A stretch of DNA of 64,000 nucleotides from a bacterium. Its GTDB lineage: Bacteria; Electryoneota; Electryoneia; Electryoneales; Electryoneaceae. Position 1 is the first letter of the stretch; each line of letters opens with the position of its first letter. The translations under genes were made by a program, and so were the position numbers. The notes beneath the pieces are model-generated. The model saw only the letters and a list, made by a program, of their open reading frames with translations, searched no databases and was not told where the DNA came from. Of the stretch, positions 34,365-43,396 are shown piece after piece. The stretch is from assembly GCA_020444265.1 (NCBI GenBank), contig JAHLLH010000002.1, positions 186,001 to 250,000 on the forward strand. Direction: 5' to 3'.

Positions 34365-36428
34365 CTACTTCACCAGCACCACCTTACGCACCTGATCCTG
34401 GCTTCCGTCGAGGGTCGCACGCACCAGGTAGGTCCCCGTCGCCAATCCGCTGCCATCAAAGAGCAAGGTATGTCGTCCCTGAACCGCATTCTGGTTCCGT
34501 AACACAGTCACCTGCCTCCCCAACAGATCATACATCGCTACCCTCACATGCCCTGCCCTCGGCAGGTCGAGGGTGATGGTGGTGGTGGGGTTGAAGGGAT
34601 TGGGGGTCGGGGGATGCAGGACGAACGATCCCGGCTGCGCTTCTTCAGGTTCGTGTTCCTGGGCGGAGAGGGTGTTGTCGTTGAACAGCACATCGCCCGA
34701 CCGGAAGATGAAATCATCATCCCCGTCCCCGTCCACATCTGCAATCGCCGCGAGATCGGTGGGAATCGAAACCCCCTCAAAGGGATCGGTCACCATCCAG
34801 TAGTAGCCGCCATTGGGCAGGGGACGTCTCAGGTAACAGGTGGAGGGAAACATCATCAGGTCCAGCAGGGAGTCTTGATCGACAAAAGAAAAAAACATCC
34901 ACTCCACGGGCCCCGGGTTGCGCGGTAGCTCATAGGTATCCCGCAACAGCCAGTCACCGTCGACAAATTCCTTGCGTTGGAAATGGAATGCAGAGTGGTC
35001 CGACAGCTGCAGAGCGAGCATCATTGCCGGCTCGGGGTTGTTATCCATATTGCCGATTGCCACAAGCGAATCGGGTTGCACGCCGCGAGAGTAGTTCGGG
35101 AGATTGGACCAGTTCGTGCCGAGCGGATCGGCGGGAGACACATAACCGGAGGTAAAGGGAAAACGGTACCCATTTTGACGTGTATAGCCGATCAGGTGCA
35201 GCGTCTGGTACTGCGATCCCTCGTCCCATACGCTGTCGAAACGGAAAACGGTTTCGAAGACGTTGAAGTTCCAAAATTCCATCAGGGGGCCCAGTTTGTG
35301 CCACGCATTTCGCTCGTCACTCCAGACCCATCGATTCAGGGAGAGGTTGTAGATGAACGGATTTTCGAGGTAGTCGATGGTATCGATCCAGGTAGATCGG
35401 GTGGTTGCAAAGAGACGAGTGGGATCGGTTGGGTCCGAGTTGATGGCGACAATATCAGCGGGCTGCGTATAGTCCTCGAAGGGCACCAGCAGGTTGCCGG
35501 GCTCGATTGAACAGGCGCTCCAACTGTGATCCTTGTACAGCAGGAACTCGTCCACCCCATCCCCAGTCAGATCAAAGCTGAAGAGATTGTTCGCATAGTC
35601 TTCCCCGTACAAGGAGAGGAGATTGCGAGTCGGAGATTCGGTAAACGAGTCGTCCACGACAATAATTTTGTGGTTTCGGATGCTGGGTTCCCCTGGTTCA
35701 ACCCACACTTCAGCAAAAAGAAAAACCAGCTCCGCAGCAGGATCATCATCGATTTGAGCGAGTTGGAAGCCGTAATACGCAACGGTCAGCCCGGTGAAGA
35801 CCGTCTCAAATTCATACTCCCAGGTCGTCCATCCCCAAGGGGCAGTGGTGTCCCGCAGGACTACCACAAGGTCGCAGGTGCGGTGATGGGAATCCGACTG
35901 GGCGAAGACCCAATCCAGTAACCCATCTCCGTTCACATCTCCATAGCGGTGGTCGTAGCTACGGCAGTCTTCCGCTCGAACAATCGAGGGGACCGACCCC
36001 TCGGTAGGCTCCCAGGAGGGGTTGGAGGCGAGATAATTGTATTCGTAGCTGATGGGCAGCTCGCGTGCTTCCGTCGAGATGTCGGCGTGCAGCAGGGGTC
36101 CGTCCACCCAGAAACTGGCATCCTCCCAAAAAGGAAGGCCATCGAGCGTGACCAGGACCAGTTCCCAATCGACCCCGGCAAGGCTTGGGTCGGTATCGAC
36201 CAGGAGACGCAGGACTTCCCCATCAAACCCACGTCCATAAACCGGTGAACCGGATTGGTTGGACCCATAAAGGAGACGGTAGGAATTGGGACGGGTCTGA
36301 GCGGGGGAGAGTCGAGTATCCAGCTCGTCCCACCTCCAGATCCAATCCTGGCTGAATGAGGGGTGAGGCAAGAAGAGGAGGATAGCAAGAATGGCCGCAG
36401 TGGAATAGAGAGATGCCCCCGACTTCAT
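34365..36428 (-). CDS. Secreted FG-GAP/VCBS-like surface protein with sorting domain
   Basis: A 687-residue secreted protein has a signal peptide of about 25 residues and repeated calcium-loop-like segments typical of FG-GAP/VCBS repeats ('YGDVNGDGLLDW', 'DLTGDGVDEFLLY', 'IADVDGDGDDDFIF'). A C-terminal sorting domain carries 'PTPNPFNPTTTITLDLPRAG', 'YDLLGRQV' and 'LATGTYLVRA'. The ATG follows GGAGG. It is 36 bases downstream of a paralogue of like layout. It is probably displayed on or released from the cell surface; its ligand is unknown. Confidence 0.85.
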   Translation of the reverse strand: MKSGASLYSTAAILAILLFLPHPSFSQDWIWRWDELDTRLSPAQTRPNSYRLLYGSNQSGSPVYGRGFDGEVLRLLVDTDPSLAGVDWELVLVTLDGLPFWEDASFWVDGPLLHADISTEARELPISYEYNYLASNPSWEPTEGSVPSIVRAEDCRSYDHRYGDVNGDGLLDWVFAQSDSHHRTCDLVVVLRDTTAPWGWTTWEYEFETVFTGLTVAYYGFQLAQIDDDPAAELVFLFAEVWVEPGEPSIRNHKIIVVDDSFTESPTRNLLSLYGEDYANNLFSFDLTGDGVDEFLLYKDHSWSACSIEPGNLLVPFEDYTQPADIVAINSDPTDPTRLFATTRSTWIDTIDYLENPFIYNLSLNRWVWSDERNAWHKLGPLMEFWNFNVFETVFRFDSVWDEGSQYQTLHLIGYTRQNGYRFPFTSGYVSPADPLGTNWSNLPNYSRGVQPDSLVAIGNMDNNPEPAMMLALQLSDHSAFHFQRKEFVDGDWLLRDTYELPRNPGPVEWMFFSFVDQDSLLDLMMFPSTCYLRRPLPNGGYYWMVTDPFEGVSIPTDLAAIADVDGDGDDDFIFRSGDVLFNDNTLSAQEHEPEEAQPGSFVLHPPTPNPFNPTTTITLDLPRAGHVRVAMYDLLGRQVTVLRNQNAVQGRHTLLFDGSGLATGTYLVRATLDGSQDQVRKVVLVK

Positions 36429-36464
36429 TTTGCCTCCAGTCAAAGCAATCCGTACAGAACAGGT

Positions 36465-38438
36465 TTATTTCATCAGGATCATTTTTACCGTACGGGTGTC
36501 ATGATACTTATAGGTTGCCCGTACAAGGTAGACCCCGGACGCGAGACGGCTGCCATCAAACAGCGCATCACGCCTCCCGGAAGGTACGGTTCCATCCTGC
36601 AACACCGCCACCTGCCTCCCCAACAGATCATACACCGCCACTCGAAGATGCCCTGCCCTCGGCAGGTCGAGGGTGATGGTGGTGGTGGGGTTGAAGGGGT
36701 TGGGAGAGATGGAGGTTATCGTAAAAGTGCCGGGACGAGTGGCTTCCACAGTAGGGTCCTCAACCCCATTCCAGCTATGGTTCAGCAGCAGGACACCATT
36801 TCCGAAATAAAGATCCTGGGTACCGTCCAGATTGACATCGTATGCGCTCAACGGGGAGCTCGCGGGAAGCGGGCCGACGTCCGCGAAGGGCTCTGCATGT
36901 TCCCAGAACGTCGTTCCGTCCAGTCGGCGAATGCAGATCAATGCCTGGTTGTCATTGTAGACCAGGTCTGGGGTCGTGTTGCCATCAATATCCGAGACAA
37001 GCATTTTGAACGTTGGCTGCGGAATATCCTCCGACAAAACCCAAGATCGGCCCGTCACCCACTCTTCTCCATTCCAGGTTTGTTCGTAAAGGGTGCCATT
37101 GTAGTACGAGATATAATCGAGCCGCCCGTCTCCGAAGATGTCGCCATAACCACCAAGACGAGGGTTTTCAAACCCGTACAGGGTTTGAGAATAATCGTTC
37201 TGAAGTTGCCACGGTTCATCATCATTGGCGGGGGGCATCCAGACTTTCGTTTTGAACGTATAGCTGATTGGTACGCTTTCCGAGATGCCCGAGAGGATGA
37301 GCGCACGATTCTCGGTATTGTCCAGGGGAAGGGAGGTGGCATTCGCGCCGTGAGTATAGATCGGAATTCCGTGTAACGTATATGACTCGCCATCCGGGTT
37401 GGCACTCCACATGCAGTAAGGCGCACGTATGCTGGGAAGGGTCTCGTCACTGGAGTACCACGGTCCTGTGATGCCGGCAGAAAGGAATCGAACCGGAGTG
37501 TTGATCTCGTCGAGTTCGAGCGGCATCCAGAGCTTGTAGGGCGGTGACCAGGCACGTTCCGGGGTGAATGTCAGAGGATACATCGTTCCACCAACGGAAC
37601 CCTCCAGCAAGGTTCGATGATCGGTGCTCAATACCTCGTCGCTCCCGTCCCCATTTATATCCGCAACAAAAAACTGCCTGGTCGGGTCCGCCGTGACGAT
37701 CAGGACGCTGTCCGGGGTCGCGGCAAGCAGGCAGCAGCCGTCCAATAACGGCACTGTGTGCATCTGGTATGTCCACCGCTGGCAGAAGAGTTCATCTTGT
37801 CCGTCATCGTCGATATCGAGCGCATAGATCCCGTAGGCCACTTCACCCGCGACCACCGTAGCTGTTAGCGGCTCAACACCGTCCGTCTGGAAATGGACGG
37901 TAACCTCGTTGGTGTCATACCGCTGAATCGCGTAGTCGAAGAGTCCATCACCATCAAAATCACCGACGGTGTAAATTTCGAAGTCCTCTCCGGTGAGATA
38001 ATACGAGCGGTCCAAGACCCACTCGACCGTTTCCCCGGCTGGGTCATAGAGGGATGTGATCAAGGTATCCTGCTGATCCCCCGGCAGCACATGGACGTAA
38101 CGAATCTGCGATCCAGCGGCCATCAGGTGGCGCTGGAAGGAGCCATAACCAACCTCGTCCGGCAGGTCAATCATGAGGGGACGGGTTACCCAGTTATGGC
38201 TTGCAGGACGCGTATCATCGTCATATACCATGATCGCGCTGGTTCCCTCTTCTTCCATGACAACAAAACGTGGCGCAGATTCCCCCTCCAGGGTCAGGCA
38301 GTCAACCGCTTTTCCCAACAGGCTGTCGGTGGGGGTGCCATTGGGAGTCAGGTTCACCCATTCCCACTCCCAGTGTTGGGCAACAGAGGGAGAGGAAAGC
38401 AGGCAGACGAGGGTAATGAAAAGAATCAGGTGTTTCAT
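36465..38438 (-). CDS. Secreted FG-GAP/VCBS-like surface protein, tandem paralogue
   Basis: A 657-residue protein has a 20-residue signal peptide and repeat loops such as 'VGDFDGDGLFDYAIQ', 'LDIDDDGQDELF', 'VADINGDGSDEVL' and 'VSDIDGNTTPDLVY'. A C-terminal sorting domain has 'SPNPFNPTTTITLDLPRAG' and 'YDLLGRQVAVL'. The repeat regions of the two tandem proteins have diverged, but DNA of the sorting domains is nearly the same over about 90 bases. It is likely a surface-exposed adhesin-like or binding propeller. Confidence 0.85.
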   Translation of the reverse strand: MKHLILFITLVCLLSSPSVAQHWEWEWVNLTPNGTPTDSLLGKAVDCLTLEGESAPRFVVMEEEGTSAIMVYDDDTRPASHNWVTRPLMIDLPDEVGYGSFQRHLMAAGSQIRYVHVLPGDQQDTLITSLYDPAGETVEWVLDRSYYLTGEDFEIYTVGDFDGDGLFDYAIQRYDTNEVTVHFQTDGVEPLTATVVAGEVAYGIYALDIDDDGQDELFCQRWTYQMHTVPLLDGCCLLAATPDSVLIVTADPTRQFFVADINGDGSDEVLSTDHRTLLEGSVGGTMYPLTFTPERAWSPPYKLWMPLELDEINTPVRFLSAGITGPWYSSDETLPSIRAPYCMWSANPDGESYTLHGIPIYTHGANATSLPLDNTENRALILSGISESVPISYTFKTKVWMPPANDDEPWQLQNDYSQTLYGFENPRLGGYGDIFGDGRLDYISYYNGTLYEQTWNGEEWVTGRSWVLSEDIPQPTFKMLVSDIDGNTTPDLVYNDNQALICIRRLDGTTFWEHAEPFADVGPLPASSPLSAYDVNLDGTQDLYFGNGVLLLNHSWNGVEDPTVEATRPGTFTITSISPNPFNPTTTITLDLPRAGHLRVAVYDLLGRQVAVLQDGTVPSGRRDALFDGSRLASGVYLVRATYKYHDTRTVKMILMK

Positions 38439-38640
38439 AAGAACCTCATCGAAAAATCCATTTCAAGGAAGATATGCAAGAAACGGACCGTAAAACGACA
38501 GATCAAGATGTCCGTAAAGCCAGAAATAGTAACCAACCCTTCTCCATGCCTTTTCCTCGAGTGGGAACCAGACACCAGGAGGTGGGAGTGTCACGCACAC
38601 CTCGTCCGCTATATTGGGGGAGGATTTACCGGGACGGTTC

Positions 38641-39726
38641 ATGAGCTTTCGCTCAAAACAAACAGGTTGGCAGATCATTCTGGCGGGACTATTTCTCCTG
38701 CTGATGACCTCCTCCGCCTTCGCCCAGCAGCCTCCCACCTGCTCCGGTTGCGGGAAAACCATTGTTGGTAGTTATGTCGAGATCGAGGGGAAGGCCTATC
38801 ACAAGGCATGCGTTGTCTGCGCGGAATGCGGGAAACGGATCCTCGGGCAATACGGTAGCAAGGATGGCAACCTCTACCACCCGGATTGCTACGAACAGGC
38901 GCACGCTCCTCGTTGCGGGGTCTGCGGCGAGCCGATAGTCGGGCAGTATGTCACCCTCGAAGGACAAGCCTACCACCAGGACTGCTACCGGGACCGGGTC
39001 GCGAAACGTTGCGTTGTTTGCGGCGAGGTGATCCAGGGACAATACATCGAAGATGGCTGGGGCGGGACGATCCATGCCAGGCATCATGAAACGGTCCCCC
39101 GTTGCGATTCATGCAGCCGTTTCCTGGCTGGTCTTTCCGGTACTCGTCACCTGGATGATGGCCGTTCCCTCTGTGCCGACTGCTGGCGCGGTGGTGTCCA
39201 CGATCTGCCGCATGCCGAACGATTAATGGGTGAGGCGCAACGTATCCTCGGCGAGGCGGGCATTGGACTTCTGACTCCGCTGGAAACCATCTCCCTCGAA
39301 CTGGTGGACAAGCAGAAAATCGCCACCATCGGAGGCGTGGGCGGGGACACCTATGGGGTCCACGAGGTCGAGTCGAAACGAACCAGCGATGGTCGTGTGA
39401 TCCTCGAGGAAACGACGATTTATCTTGTGCGGGATCTACCCGAAGAACAGGCGTTGGCTGTACTTGCGCACGAGCTTTTTCATGTCTGGCAGCACGAGCG
39501 TGGGGCAGATGGCGGAGCGGCGCAGTGGCGCGAGGGAAGTGCCAATGTGGCTGGCTGGCTTGCCTTGCAAAGCCGAAACACCGAGCTGGCACGCTTCCTG
39601 CTCGAGAAGATGGACGAGGCGCCGGACTTGACCTACGGTACAGGGTTCAGGCGGGCGAAACGACTCTACGAAACACGCGGGAAAGTGGTCTTCCTCGAGC
39701 GGGTGCTGTTGGAGGGGAAACGGTAG
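38641..39726 (+). CDS. Secreted LIM-zinc-finger protein with DA1-like metallopeptidase domain
   Basis: A 361-residue protein with a signal peptide (about 1-29). A canonical LIM domain spans residues 34-83 with spacing C-x2-C-x16-H-x2-C-x2-C-x2-C-x16-H-x2-C. More Cys/His modules follow: C92-C95-H112-C115, C124-C127 with His at 145-149, and C155-C158-H170-C178-C181. The C-terminal half carries 'AHELFHVWQHE' (HExxH at 277-281) with a second glutamate in 'WREGSANVAGWL' near 298, as in the peptidase of plant DA1 (LIM plus DA1-like domain). It is probably a zinc-dependent periplasmic or surface peptidase. It stands alone between the surface proteins and a sensor kinase. Confidence 0.85.
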   Translation: MSFRSKQTGWQIILAGLFLLLMTSSAFAQQPPTCSGCGKTIVGSYVEIEGKAYHKACVVCAECGKRILGQYGSKDGNLYHPDCYEQAHAPRCGVCGEPIVGQYVTLEGQAYHQDCYRDRVAKRCVVCGEVIQGQYIEDGWGGTIHARHHETVPRCDSCSRFLAGLSGTRHLDDGRSLCADCWRGGVHDLPHAERLMGEAQRILGEAGIGLLTPLETISLELVDKQKIATIGGVGGDTYGVHEVESKRTSDGRVILEETTIYLVRDLPEEQALAVLAHELFHVWQHERGADGGAAQWREGSANVAGWLALQSRNTELARFLLEKMDEAPDLTYGTGFRRAKRLYETRGKVVFLERVLLEGKR

Positions 39727-39843: not shown

Positions 39844-42800
39844 CTAATCCTTAACCCGCGGGAAAAGCAGGTGGAAAGCGGAGCCCCGTCCTTCCTCGCT
39901 CTCGATCCAGACAACACCGTTCACCTGTTCGACGGCGGCATAGACACTGGCGAGTCCAAGGCCGGTCCCCTGCCCGTCACCCTTGGTGGTAAAGAAGGGT
40001 TCGAACACCTTCGCCTGAAGCTCTTTCGGAATCCCGGTTCCGTTGTCCGCGGCTATCACCGAGACGTAGTCCCCAGCTTGTGCCGTTGGATGGAGACGGC
40101 AGAAGTGTTCATCGCACGTGAAATTCCCCACCGTCACTTTAAAATAGCCACCCAGCGGCATCGCATCACGTGCATTGACCGCGAGGTTCAGGATCGCCTG
40201 TTCGAGCTGACGGGCATCAACCTTTGCTTTCCAAAGGTTGGGGGTAACCTCAACGTCGAGGTCGACACGTGGGGCGAGGAGACGATCCATCATCGGAGCT
40301 AGCTCGTCCATCAGTTTGCCGATGTGGACCGGCACCGATTCGACGGGGGGACGGCGGCTGTAAGCAAGCAGGTCGCGAATCAGCTGCGCGGCACGTTCCG
40401 CTGTTCCCATAATCAGGGTCAATTCTGTGCGCAGGTGACCGGTCAGGGATTTATCCGCCAACGTGACACTCGCATGACCGTGAATGACAGAAAGCAGGTT
40501 GTTGAAATCATGCGCCAGCCCACTGGCGAGACGGCCCACGGTCTCCATCCGTTGCGCCTGCTGGAACTGTTCCTGGGCCTCGGCACGCTCTTTTTCAGCC
40601 CGTTCGCGCTCCGCAATCTCGTATTGCAGTTTTTTAAGCGACTCTTCAAGACTCCTGGTCCGATCCTCGACCAGGGCCTCCAACTGACGGTTGATCCGCC
40701 TGAAACGGGCATTCCGAACTCGCTGGTAGAGCACGACTGCGGCGAGCAGGAATAAAACATAGACGATGTAGGCCGCTGTCGTTCGATGGAGCGGAGGACG
40801 GATTCGGACGGACTGGGAGGCAACCTTGCTGACACGACCTTCGGTATCTCGTCCACGCACCTCGAACTGATAAATGCCTTCCCGCAGGTTCTCGAAGTCG
40901 TGGTAGGTTTCACGGCTCCAGTCGGACCAACTGTTGTTCAGGCCGACCAGGCGATACTGAAACTCGTTCTGCTCGGAACGGACATACCGTGGAATACTGT
41001 ACTCAAAGCGAATCGAATTCTGGTCCCATGGCAGGGTGATGCTGGACGAAGAAAGTGTGGAAAAGGTCATCTCGTTGTCATGGGTACGAGTTACCATGCG
41101 ACGCAGAACGGCAGAGAACTCCAAGTCCCGCTTCACCTTCGCGGTTTCATCGTACCGCAGCAGGGTACCACCGGGACCGCCACCCCAGACGATGCCATCC
41201 GGCTCGGGGTAGACCGAGTAGTAGGAGCGATTCAGCCCCTGGTTCAGCGGGGCGGAAATCAGGTATTTGCCATAGGGCTGGGGGGTAGCTACAAGACCAG
41301 ACCACGGTTCCGAATCAAACCAGACCCGTCCCTGGTAATCGACGGTCGGCCCCACAATCGCTTGCAGGGTGCGGAAGTCGGTGTCAAAGAGGACCGAGTC
41401 GCGTTCGAAGGTCTCCGTCTCCCGGTTGAAACGGAACAATCCCTGGTAGGAACCGACATAGAGCCTGCCGTGCAGACGGAATGGGTAGTAGTAATCCGGA
41501 CCGGGCAGACCGTGCCCCTCCTCGAAGTGGGTCCGGTCCTTGAAAACCAGCTTCCCCTCGGCATTCTGCGAGAGGGTAACTCGTTCGAGGTAGAGGTCGT
41601 CGACGGTTAGCCAGAAGTGATGACGTCCATCCTGCACGATGTTGCGGATGACTCCCTCGGTTTCCTCGATGTTTTTCTTGTCCACCCAGTGTCGTCCATC
41701 CCATTCCAGGTAGCCCAGTCCCCCAAACCAGTCGCCATAAAGCACACGACTTGAGTCGCGAACGAGGAGCATTGCCTCCGACCCGTAGTTGACCACTTTT
41801 CGCGGGGATTCGGAGGAGTGCAGCGAGGAAAACTCGTAGATGGCATCGAATGTTGCGACAAGGAGACGGTCCTTCGCCGACAGGACCTGCCAGGTCCAAT
41901 CGTGGATGCCTTCCAGCGGGACCAGTTTCGCATGGCCCAGGGAATTATGTGCAGGTTGTAACCGGGCAACTCCCTGGTCCCCGCCGACCACAAGCGTGTC
42001 GCGGAATCGTGTAATCGAGAAGACGGTTCCGGAAAGGCCTTCGTCCAGCCCGAATCGTGTCATCGGGGAGTTGATCTGCAAACGTGCAATGCCAAAATCG
42101 AGCGGGAACCAGAGGCCCCCTTCACGGTCCAGGGTGCCGGTATGGACCACGTTGTCCGGCAGGCCGGTCTCGCGGTTATGGACCGAGAGAATGTTGCCCT
42201 CGGAATCGAATAACGCCAATCCGCCTGATTCGGTGGCGAGGCCAAAAAGATTGTCGCGGAGCGGCATCAACTCCATGCCGTGATAGTCGATCGAGTAGCG
42301 GATGACAGGCGCTTCGAACCGACGCGCTTTGCCGTTCTCGAAAGTGTACCAGATCTCCTTGTCATCATCATCCAGCGCTGCCAGCAGGAATCGACCCGGT
42401 CCGAACGAGCTCATCTCGAAGATGAAAATATCCTTGAAGAATTCCCCCCCAGGCAGCAAGCGGAGCGAATCACCATCTAGGGTGAGCAACCCGACCCCAT
42501 ACTGCGCGATCACATGCTGGTCATTTCCATAGCAGTAAGCCGAATAGGGTGAATACTCGTCGAAAGAGTACACGGTAAAAACGCCCTCATCACCGTTGCT
42601 GTTCGAAGGGACAAAACGCAAGAGGTGGTTCCAATCCTCGAAGATGATGCCTTCGGGGGTGGCGCGAGTTGTCCAGACGTTACTTGGGTCAATCGAGTCC
42701 GGCAGAAGATGGGCGAGCGAAACCAGTTCCGCAGTGCCGTCGGGGTGTTTTTTAAGCAGGCCGATATCGTGGTCAAATCCGACGTAGACGCGGTTGCTGG

Positions 42801-43086
42801 GGTCGACGGTCAGCGAGAGGGGTTGCAGGTTGTCCGGATGACGGTATAGTTGCCAACGGACCCCGTCAAATTCGAGCACGCCACTCATGTTGGCGGCATA
42901 GATTAAGCCAGTTGAATCCTGGACGATGCTGGTGTTCTGGCTGTCGGAATTGTAGTCTTCAGGCAGGTATGTTTGTATAAGGGGCATCCCGGCTTCCTCG
43001 GGACGAGCAGAGAAGAGGGATGTTGCCGACACCAACAGCAACAGGAATGGAATGAAGATTCGCAAGCAGGAGATTCTCAAAATCAT
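39844..43086 (-). CDS. Two-component sensor histidine kinase with periplasmic propeller and Y_Y_Y domain
   Basis: A 1080-residue kinase has a signal/anchor, then a large periplasmic two-component-regulator propeller (about 30-660) and a Y_Y_Y domain with 'FQYRLVGLNNSWSDWS' and 'FENLREGIYQFEVRG'. A membrane helix ('YIVYVLFLLAAVVLYQ') and a coiled coil follow. The phospho-acceptor region is 'LASGLAHDFNNLLSVIHGHA', and the ATPase domain has 'ILNLAVNARDAMP', 'DNGTGIP' and 'GTGLGLASV'. The HDFNN form marks the NtrB-like/HisKA_4 kinase subgroup. Unlike many Y_Y_Y sensors it has no receiver or DNA-binding domain, and no response regulator gene lies next to it. Confidence 0.92.
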   Translation of the reverse strand: MILRISCLRIFIPFLLLLVSATSLFSARPEEAGMPLIQTYLPEDYNSDSQNTSIVQDSTGLIYAANMSGVLEFDGVRWQLYRHPDNLQPLSLTVDPSNRVYVGFDHDIGLLKKHPDGTAELVSLAHLLPDSIDPSNVWTTRATPEGIIFEDWNHLLRFVPSNSNGDEGVFTVYSFDEYSPYSAYCYGNDQHVIAQYGVGLLTLDGDSLRLLPGGEFFKDIFIFEMSSFGPGRFLLAALDDDDKEIWYTFENGKARRFEAPVIRYSIDYHGMELMPLRDNLFGLATESGGLALFDSEGNILSVHNRETGLPDNVVHTGTLDREGGLWFPLDFGIARLQINSPMTRFGLDEGLSGTVFSITRFRDTLVVGGDQGVARLQPAHNSLGHAKLVPLEGIHDWTWQVLSAKDRLLVATFDAIYEFSSLHSSESPRKVVNYGSEAMLLVRDSSRVLYGDWFGGLGYLEWDGRHWVDKKNIEETEGVIRNIVQDGRHHFWLTVDDLYLERVTLSQNAEGKLVFKDRTHFEEGHGLPGPDYYYPFRLHGRLYVGSYQGLFRFNRETETFERDSVLFDTDFRTLQAIVGPTVDYQGRVWFDSEPWSGLVATPQPYGKYLISAPLNQGLNRSYYSVYPEPDGIVWGGGPGGTLLRYDETAKVKRDLEFSAVLRRMVTRTHDNEMTFSTLSSSSITLPWDQNSIRFEYSIPRYVRSEQNEFQYRLVGLNNSWSDWSRETYHDFENLREGIYQFEVRGRDTEGRVSKVASQSVRIRPPLHRTTAAYIVYVLFLLAAVVLYQRVRNARFRRINRQLEALVEDRTRSLEESLKKLQYEIAERERAEKERAEAQEQFQQAQRMETVGRLASGLAHDFNNLLSVIHGHASVTLADKSLTGHLRTELTLIMGTAERAAQLIRDLLAYSRRPPVESVPVHIGKLMDELAPMMDRLLAPRVDLDVEVTPNLWKAKVDARQLEQAILNLAVNARDAMPLGGYFKVTVGNFTCDEHFCRLHPTAQAGDYVSVIAADNGTGIPKELQAKVFEPFFTTKGDGQGTGLGLASVYAAVEQVNGVVWIESEEGRGSAFHLLFPRVKD

Positions 43087-43396
43087 GGTGTCGTGAACCG
43101 GCCTTTCCAAACACCCGCCTGAACGTCAAATACAAAATGGGCATACCACTCCCTGGCACACCCCAAGCGTACCTAACCCCAGACATCTCAATATACAGGT
43201 TGTGAATCGCGTCAAACCGTACCGGATCGGATTCTAACGATCAAATAAGCGTACAACACAAAAAATACCAAATGTGTGCGCTGGGTCATATTTATTGAAA
43301 TAATGGGCCAATCCGGGAGTTAGGCGTTTTTAATCATCAGACGAGGAAAACGAGGCTGGCTCTCCGTGTGGGGTGGGCGGAGTAAATACTCTGCGA
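43087..43396. other. Gene-free spacer upstream of the Y_Y_Y kinase
   Basis: A stretch of relatively AT-rich DNA with no convincing reading frame and none of the palindromic repeats that fill other gaps. It probably carries the kinase promoter (minus strand) and the 3' end of the AHSA1 unit. No promoter stands out clearly. Confidence 0.4.

Follow-up and report, generated by a model that had tools for sequence, protein, structure and literature searches.

What does a LIM-domain peptidase of the DA1 type do in a bacterium, and what does it do there if it is exported? Plant DA1 governs seed and organ size, setting a limit to the latter, and is activated in a ubiquitin-dependent manner, and a gene with the same general build lies in the window, i.e., the whole 64,000-nucleotide stretch of an Electryoneota contig (JAHLLH010000002.1, positions 186,001 to 250,000). 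Judged by its sequence, the product of this gene appears to be a secreted bacterial relative of DA1, from a family that is known from bacteria and has apparently never been studied there. The protein does not stand for a new kind; what makes it interesting is its apparent secretion, along with the gene neighbours of its family. The features of the locus are as follows:

38588..38615, + strand: possible sigma-70-like promoter (9/12 matches, shuffles mean 0.3; a consensus match only)
38641..39726, + strand: LIM/DA1-like metallopeptidase gene, 361 aa (open reading frame; Pfam LIM and DA1-like; AlphaFold pLDDT 92)
38641..38724, + strand: predicted Sec signal peptide, residues 1-28, ending AFA before QQ (hydropathy and motif inspection; model helix 4-26)
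38740..38889, + strand: canonical LIM domain, modules M1 (C34, C37, H54, C57) and M2 (C60, C63, H80, C83) (Pfam, conservation, Foldseek/VIA)
38914..38985, + strand: extra half-LIM, module M3 (C92, C95, H112, C115) (family alignment, ligand table, plant DA1 alignment)
39010..39183, + strand: LIM-like region, modules M4 (C124, C127, H145, H148) and M5 (C155, C158, C178, C181) (alignments, ligand table, Dong et al. 2017, PMC5322733)
39181..39723, + strand: DA1-like gluzincin peptidase domain, residues 181-361 (H277, E278, H281, E298 and the motif D329-x2-Y332-G-x-G)

The 361-aa reading frame opens with an ATG at 38641 and its stop codon ends at 39726 on the + strand. Translation might instead begin in frame at a TTG at 38614, although the signal peptide read from it is worse than the one read from the ATG. 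An earlier, sequence-only reading of the locus had described this frame, with an exactly spaced LIM domain, additional Cys/His modules and an HExxH motif followed by a downstream Glu; the frame itself, the Pfam matches and conservation within the family confirmed this description.

LIM domains (PF00412) are defined by two zinc modules, CCHC-x2-CC(C/H)(C/H/D), at consensus spacing, and the window protein presents this arrangement with the spacing exact (C34-x2-C37-x16-H54-x2-C57-x2-C60-x2-C63-x16-H80-x2-C83). Pfam gave the domain 60.7 bits, where the cut-off is 22.9 (E = 1.6e-16 in a library of 24,736 models; best stretch, residues 34-87). All eight canonical ligands are conserved in 12/12 homologues from the window's own phylum, and the ligands of M1-M5 are invariant across 12 phylum homologues with the sole exception of M4 in one of them (L002), while elsewhere in the zinc-module region, at positions other than Cys/His, the commonest residue averages 51% identity (12 homologues). 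The E-value and the ligand conservation together rule out chance LIM-like cysteines. As for the further modules, M3 is of the CCHC type, M4 of the CCHH type and M5 of the CCCC type, the region of M4 and M5 corresponding to the LIM-like domain of DA1.

The peptidase motif reads H277-E-L-F-H281-x16-E298. Across 31 diverse members, whose identity to the window domain falls to ~14%, the only invariant residues of the peptidase domain are the H, E, H and E of this motif, G299 and Y332; D329 is invariant in the 16 members of alignment A1. The window protein itself scored 24.7 bits against the DA1-like model (PF12315), 0.3 bits below the Pfam cut-off of 25 (E 1.8e-5), and no NCBIfam family matched it above that family's own cut-off. 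PF12315 was matched by 16/16 members of alignment A1 (best E 3.4e-14) and LIM by 13/16, and one bacterial relative (L038) reached 76.6 bits against PF12315, above the cut-off. A whole-genome HMM search of the window's genome with PF12315 gave no match at E <= 0.001, which is uninformative since the controls were silent as well; the family-specific alignment succeeded where that search was silent.

AlphaFold modelled the full protein as LIM folds plus a gluzincin domain (pLDDT 92.1, pTM 0.77), and the peptidase domain by itself was modelled at a pLDDT of 94.9 and a pTM of 0.91. LIM structures were the top fold matches of the N-terminal half in both Foldseek and VIA. For the peptidase domain, VIA-align placed M1 aminopeptidases first (Z 11.0, 150/181 residues aligned, 3.2 A), the other top matches being gluzincins, i.e., ACE/ACE2, LasB, M3 and MATCAP, with Z values of 8-11 that are moderate; Foldseek found no match to this domain at E <= 0.001, i.e., no close solved structure. 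The PDB sequence matches listed for the family profile all fall within the LIM part, with no DA1-family chain among them. HExxH, the downstream Glu and the fold, as given by the invariant residues and VIA-align (Foldseek alone giving nothing significant), together identify the domain as a gluzincin of clan MA(E). The AlphaFold model, the VIA-align result and the LIM structure matches thus bear out a gluzincin-like HExxH region and LIM-like Cys modules, and neither of the outcomes that would count against the sequence-only reading occurred.

The N-terminus of the window protein, MSFRSKQTGWQIILAGLFLLLMTSSAFA followed by QQ, has the makings of a signal peptide on inspection and hydropathy only, in line with the signal peptide that had been proposed for it. 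Hydropathy revealed a hydrophobic, export-like N-terminus ahead of the zinc modules in 27/32 members; the five members without a signal look cytosolic. Three Planctomycetota forms carry lipobox-like signals. Two further members (L041, L042) have twin-arginine-like N-termini and ~12 CxxC motifs, and such signals would fit the export of a protein already loaded with zinc. Another (L052, genome G384) has its DA1-like domain inside a 1258-aa open frame with no obvious signal peptide.

Export raises the question of how a zinc finger stays reduced and keeps its metal once it has left the cytoplasm. Searches of eight host genomes found neither DsbA (PF01323) nor VKOR (PF07884); among these genomes is that of the window, which does encode haem-copper oxidases. 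Exported cysteines could remain reduced and hold zinc in hosts that have neither enzyme, and zinc-holding cysteines beyond the cytoplasm are therefore plausible. Outside the phylum, DsbA occurs in 1/10 hosts of secreted forms vs 150/332 non-hosts (Fisher p = 0.025); counted by family the hosts come to 1/8 and p to 0.06, and inside the window's own phylum DsbA was matched marginally in one host, G007 (E 6e-4). A general link between secreted forms and missing DsbA is thus suggestive only.

The family was sampled by a scan of a genome collection and by whole-genome searches, covering 386 genomes biased toward the kin of the window's host. Relatives occur in 33/386 genomes, 26 of them with strong matches (E <= 1e-14). 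In the window's own phylum 11/39 genomes have a relative, and 15 of the 347 genomes outside it (of 386) have a strong match. Three named Planctomycetota also have the family. What is new here is that members bearing predicted export signals are spread through Bacteria in a scattered fashion. A viral origin was considered and rejected, as viral scans returned no relative; none was found among plasmids either. Two members (L004, L005) keep M5 as their only zinc module, and one genome with three paralogues (G018) encodes a secreted 220-aa form (L020) in which the zinc modules are gone and the catalytic residues retained. This form marks the peptidase as the conserved core, and its sequence suggests that the LIM array serves regulation or targeting and is dispensable for the peptidase itself.

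Taken together, we consider it likely that the window protein is a secreted DA1-like LIM-peptidase, a zinc peptidase of the envelope in which the zinc-finger array places the substrate or gates the active site. What the data show directly is homology, the predicted fold, a catalytic site and zinc ligands that are conserved, and conserved export-like signals; zinc binding, proteolysis, gating and envelope substrates are what we infer. Following export by Sec, the LIM array would bind up to five structural zincs, to go by its conserved ligands, and one catalytic zinc would sit on H277, H281 and E298, with E278 acting as the general base in the manner of gluzincins. The LIM and LIM-like array would pack against the peptidase domain, where it could position substrates or gate the active site, and the enzyme would probably cleave or process envelope or exported proteins. 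For gating or positioning by the array, the best precedent is by analogy the C274Y mutation of plant DA1, which replaces a cysteine of the LIM-like region and abolishes peptidase activity (PMC5322733).

Counting against the envelope-peptidase reading, no conserved neighbour of the window gene points to a substrate. The gene is monocistronic, with no conserved neighbours around it, so the protease system for which the sequence-only reading had seen a candidate is not supported at this locus. On one side lie two adjacent genes whose products carry FG-GAP repeats and T9SS type A sorting domains (TIGR04183; window 34365-36443 and 36465-38438, both - strand), and on the other a large sensor histidine kinase of 1088 aa (39844-43110, - strand) that is convergent with the LIM-DA1 gene. 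No operon partner common to the whole family was found, and the two linkages that did emerge, to PBP1A and to znuCB, are each restricted to one lineage and cannot simply be carried over to the window gene. They are, to our knowledge, the first concrete leads to the function of these proteins in bacteria.

The first linkage lies within the window's own phylum, where in a sister family of the window's own (f2) the LIM-DA1 gene stands directly downstream of a PBP1A-type gene in 5/7 carrier genomes, representing five genera (L062, L063, L064, L065 and L067); the PBP1A identity was assigned by Pfam and NCBIfam for one f2 neighbour. This arrangement favours a narrower form of our explanation, in which the protein would be a protease linked to the cell wall, acting on a class A penicillin-binding protein or on other wall enzymes to process or regulate them. 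We regard this as unlikely for the window gene, as the linkage is not conserved in its own family (f1) or beyond the phylum, and a single lineage may merely have inherited an operon.

The second linkage occurs in a different, small phylum (that of genome G170), in which the LIM-DA1 gene directly follows znuB-type genes in 10/10 genomes from four genera (L070, L074, L100-L107). The order znuC-znuB holds in nine of the ten, the contig of the tenth ending there; FeoB lies downstream of LIM-DA1 in 7/10, sequence inspection identified a Fur-type regulator upstream in both loci inspected (L100, L105), and ZnuA, the substrate-binding protein, is encoded elsewhere in these genomes. Such a setting would suit a protein whose main role is metal handling, i.e., a protein with several zincs that is exported to the envelope and there buffers zinc or hands it on (or aids Mn/Fe supply), its proteolysis being secondary or devoted to metal-dependent processing. 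We think this quite unlikely: neither the window gene nor its own phylum has any such linkage, the catalytic residues are invariant even in L020 and in L004/L005, where all zinc modules or all save M5 are gone, a zinc-rich protein would be costly to make during zinc starvation, and the metal specificity of the linked znuCB-type ABC transporter is ambiguous. Most improbable of all is a catalytically dead scaffold, in which the LIM array would serve to bind proteins and the peptidase domain would be no more than a relic, for although zinc-peptidase folds can lose activity and the literature yielded no reported activity, or other biochemistry, for any bacterial member, all of 31 sequences, down to ~14% identity to the window domain, preserve HExxH, the Glu that is the third ligand and the conserved Tyr.

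The envelope zinc peptidase thus remains our preferred reading. It can be extended into a broader conjecture, tentative and in our estimate unlikely, that these proteins make up a widespread and unstudied class of envelope proteases tied to metal supply and wall synthesis, represented in one phylum by a metal-uptake operon of a Fur-type regulator, znuC, znuB, LIM-DA1 and FeoB. Their exported zinc fingers would persist without periplasmic thiol oxidases, and plant DA1 would have arisen as their offshoot in the cytosol, rewired to ubiquitin.

Among known systems, gluzincins of the M1, M2, M3 and M4 families have HExxH and a downstream Glu in common with the window protein, together with the same fold in the model; the window protein differs in its much smaller domain, its 16-residue spacer and its LIM array. 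Bacterial DA1-like proteins are known from Roseiflexus; Dong et al. 2017 (PMC5322733), with reference to the 2011 survey of Burroughs, Iyer and Aravind, describe them as having a LIM-like region and high similarity to DA1, as the window protein does. The word undescribed in the sequence-only reading is accordingly not supported; the window gene is a member of a known, unstudied bacterial branch of DA1, and the new element is the leads from gene context. Overall, the original observation is confirmed and its interpretation partly supported.

Plant DA1 consists of UIMs, LIM, LIM-like and peptidase regions, the last with HEMMHx15EE (Dong et al. 2017, PMC5322733). Our comparison used an approximate plant DA1 sequence, whose only check, a full-length PF12315 score of 323 bits, makes it an adequate yardstick. 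The HMM of the bacterial family aligned with it at 126.9 bits, from LIM through the LIM-like region and peptidase to the C-terminal tail, and this end-to-end alignment indicates that the whole LIM, LIM-like and peptidase chain is common to both, in keeping with the architecture that had been likened to plant DA1 from the start. The 16-residue spacer between HExxH and Glu is identical in the plant query and the bacterial family. On the suggested ancestry of DA1, the plant sequence does group with bacterial ones: it joins L038, a bacterial protein with an export-like N-terminus, with support of 97/93, in a tree that also contains a long-branch pair at the join with L026. The direction between plants and bacteria is left undecided because the tree is unrooted and its branches are long. 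Like plant DA1/DAR proteins (PF12315 plus LIM; clan MA), the bacterial protein has LIM, LIM-like CxxC/H modules, an HExxH-x16-E peptidase and a P-x-YGxGFR tail. Unlike the plant sequence used, it has one additional half-LIM (M3), and it bears a signal peptide where the plant protein has its UIM region; there is no room for UIMs in the window protein, whose first LIM cysteine comes ~5 residues after the signal peptide, and activation by ubiquitin is not expected. Bacterial relatives that carry export signals and do without UIMs could reveal what the LIM-peptidase core does where ubiquitin plays no part, and could also show whether access to the active site is controlled by the LIM-like part.
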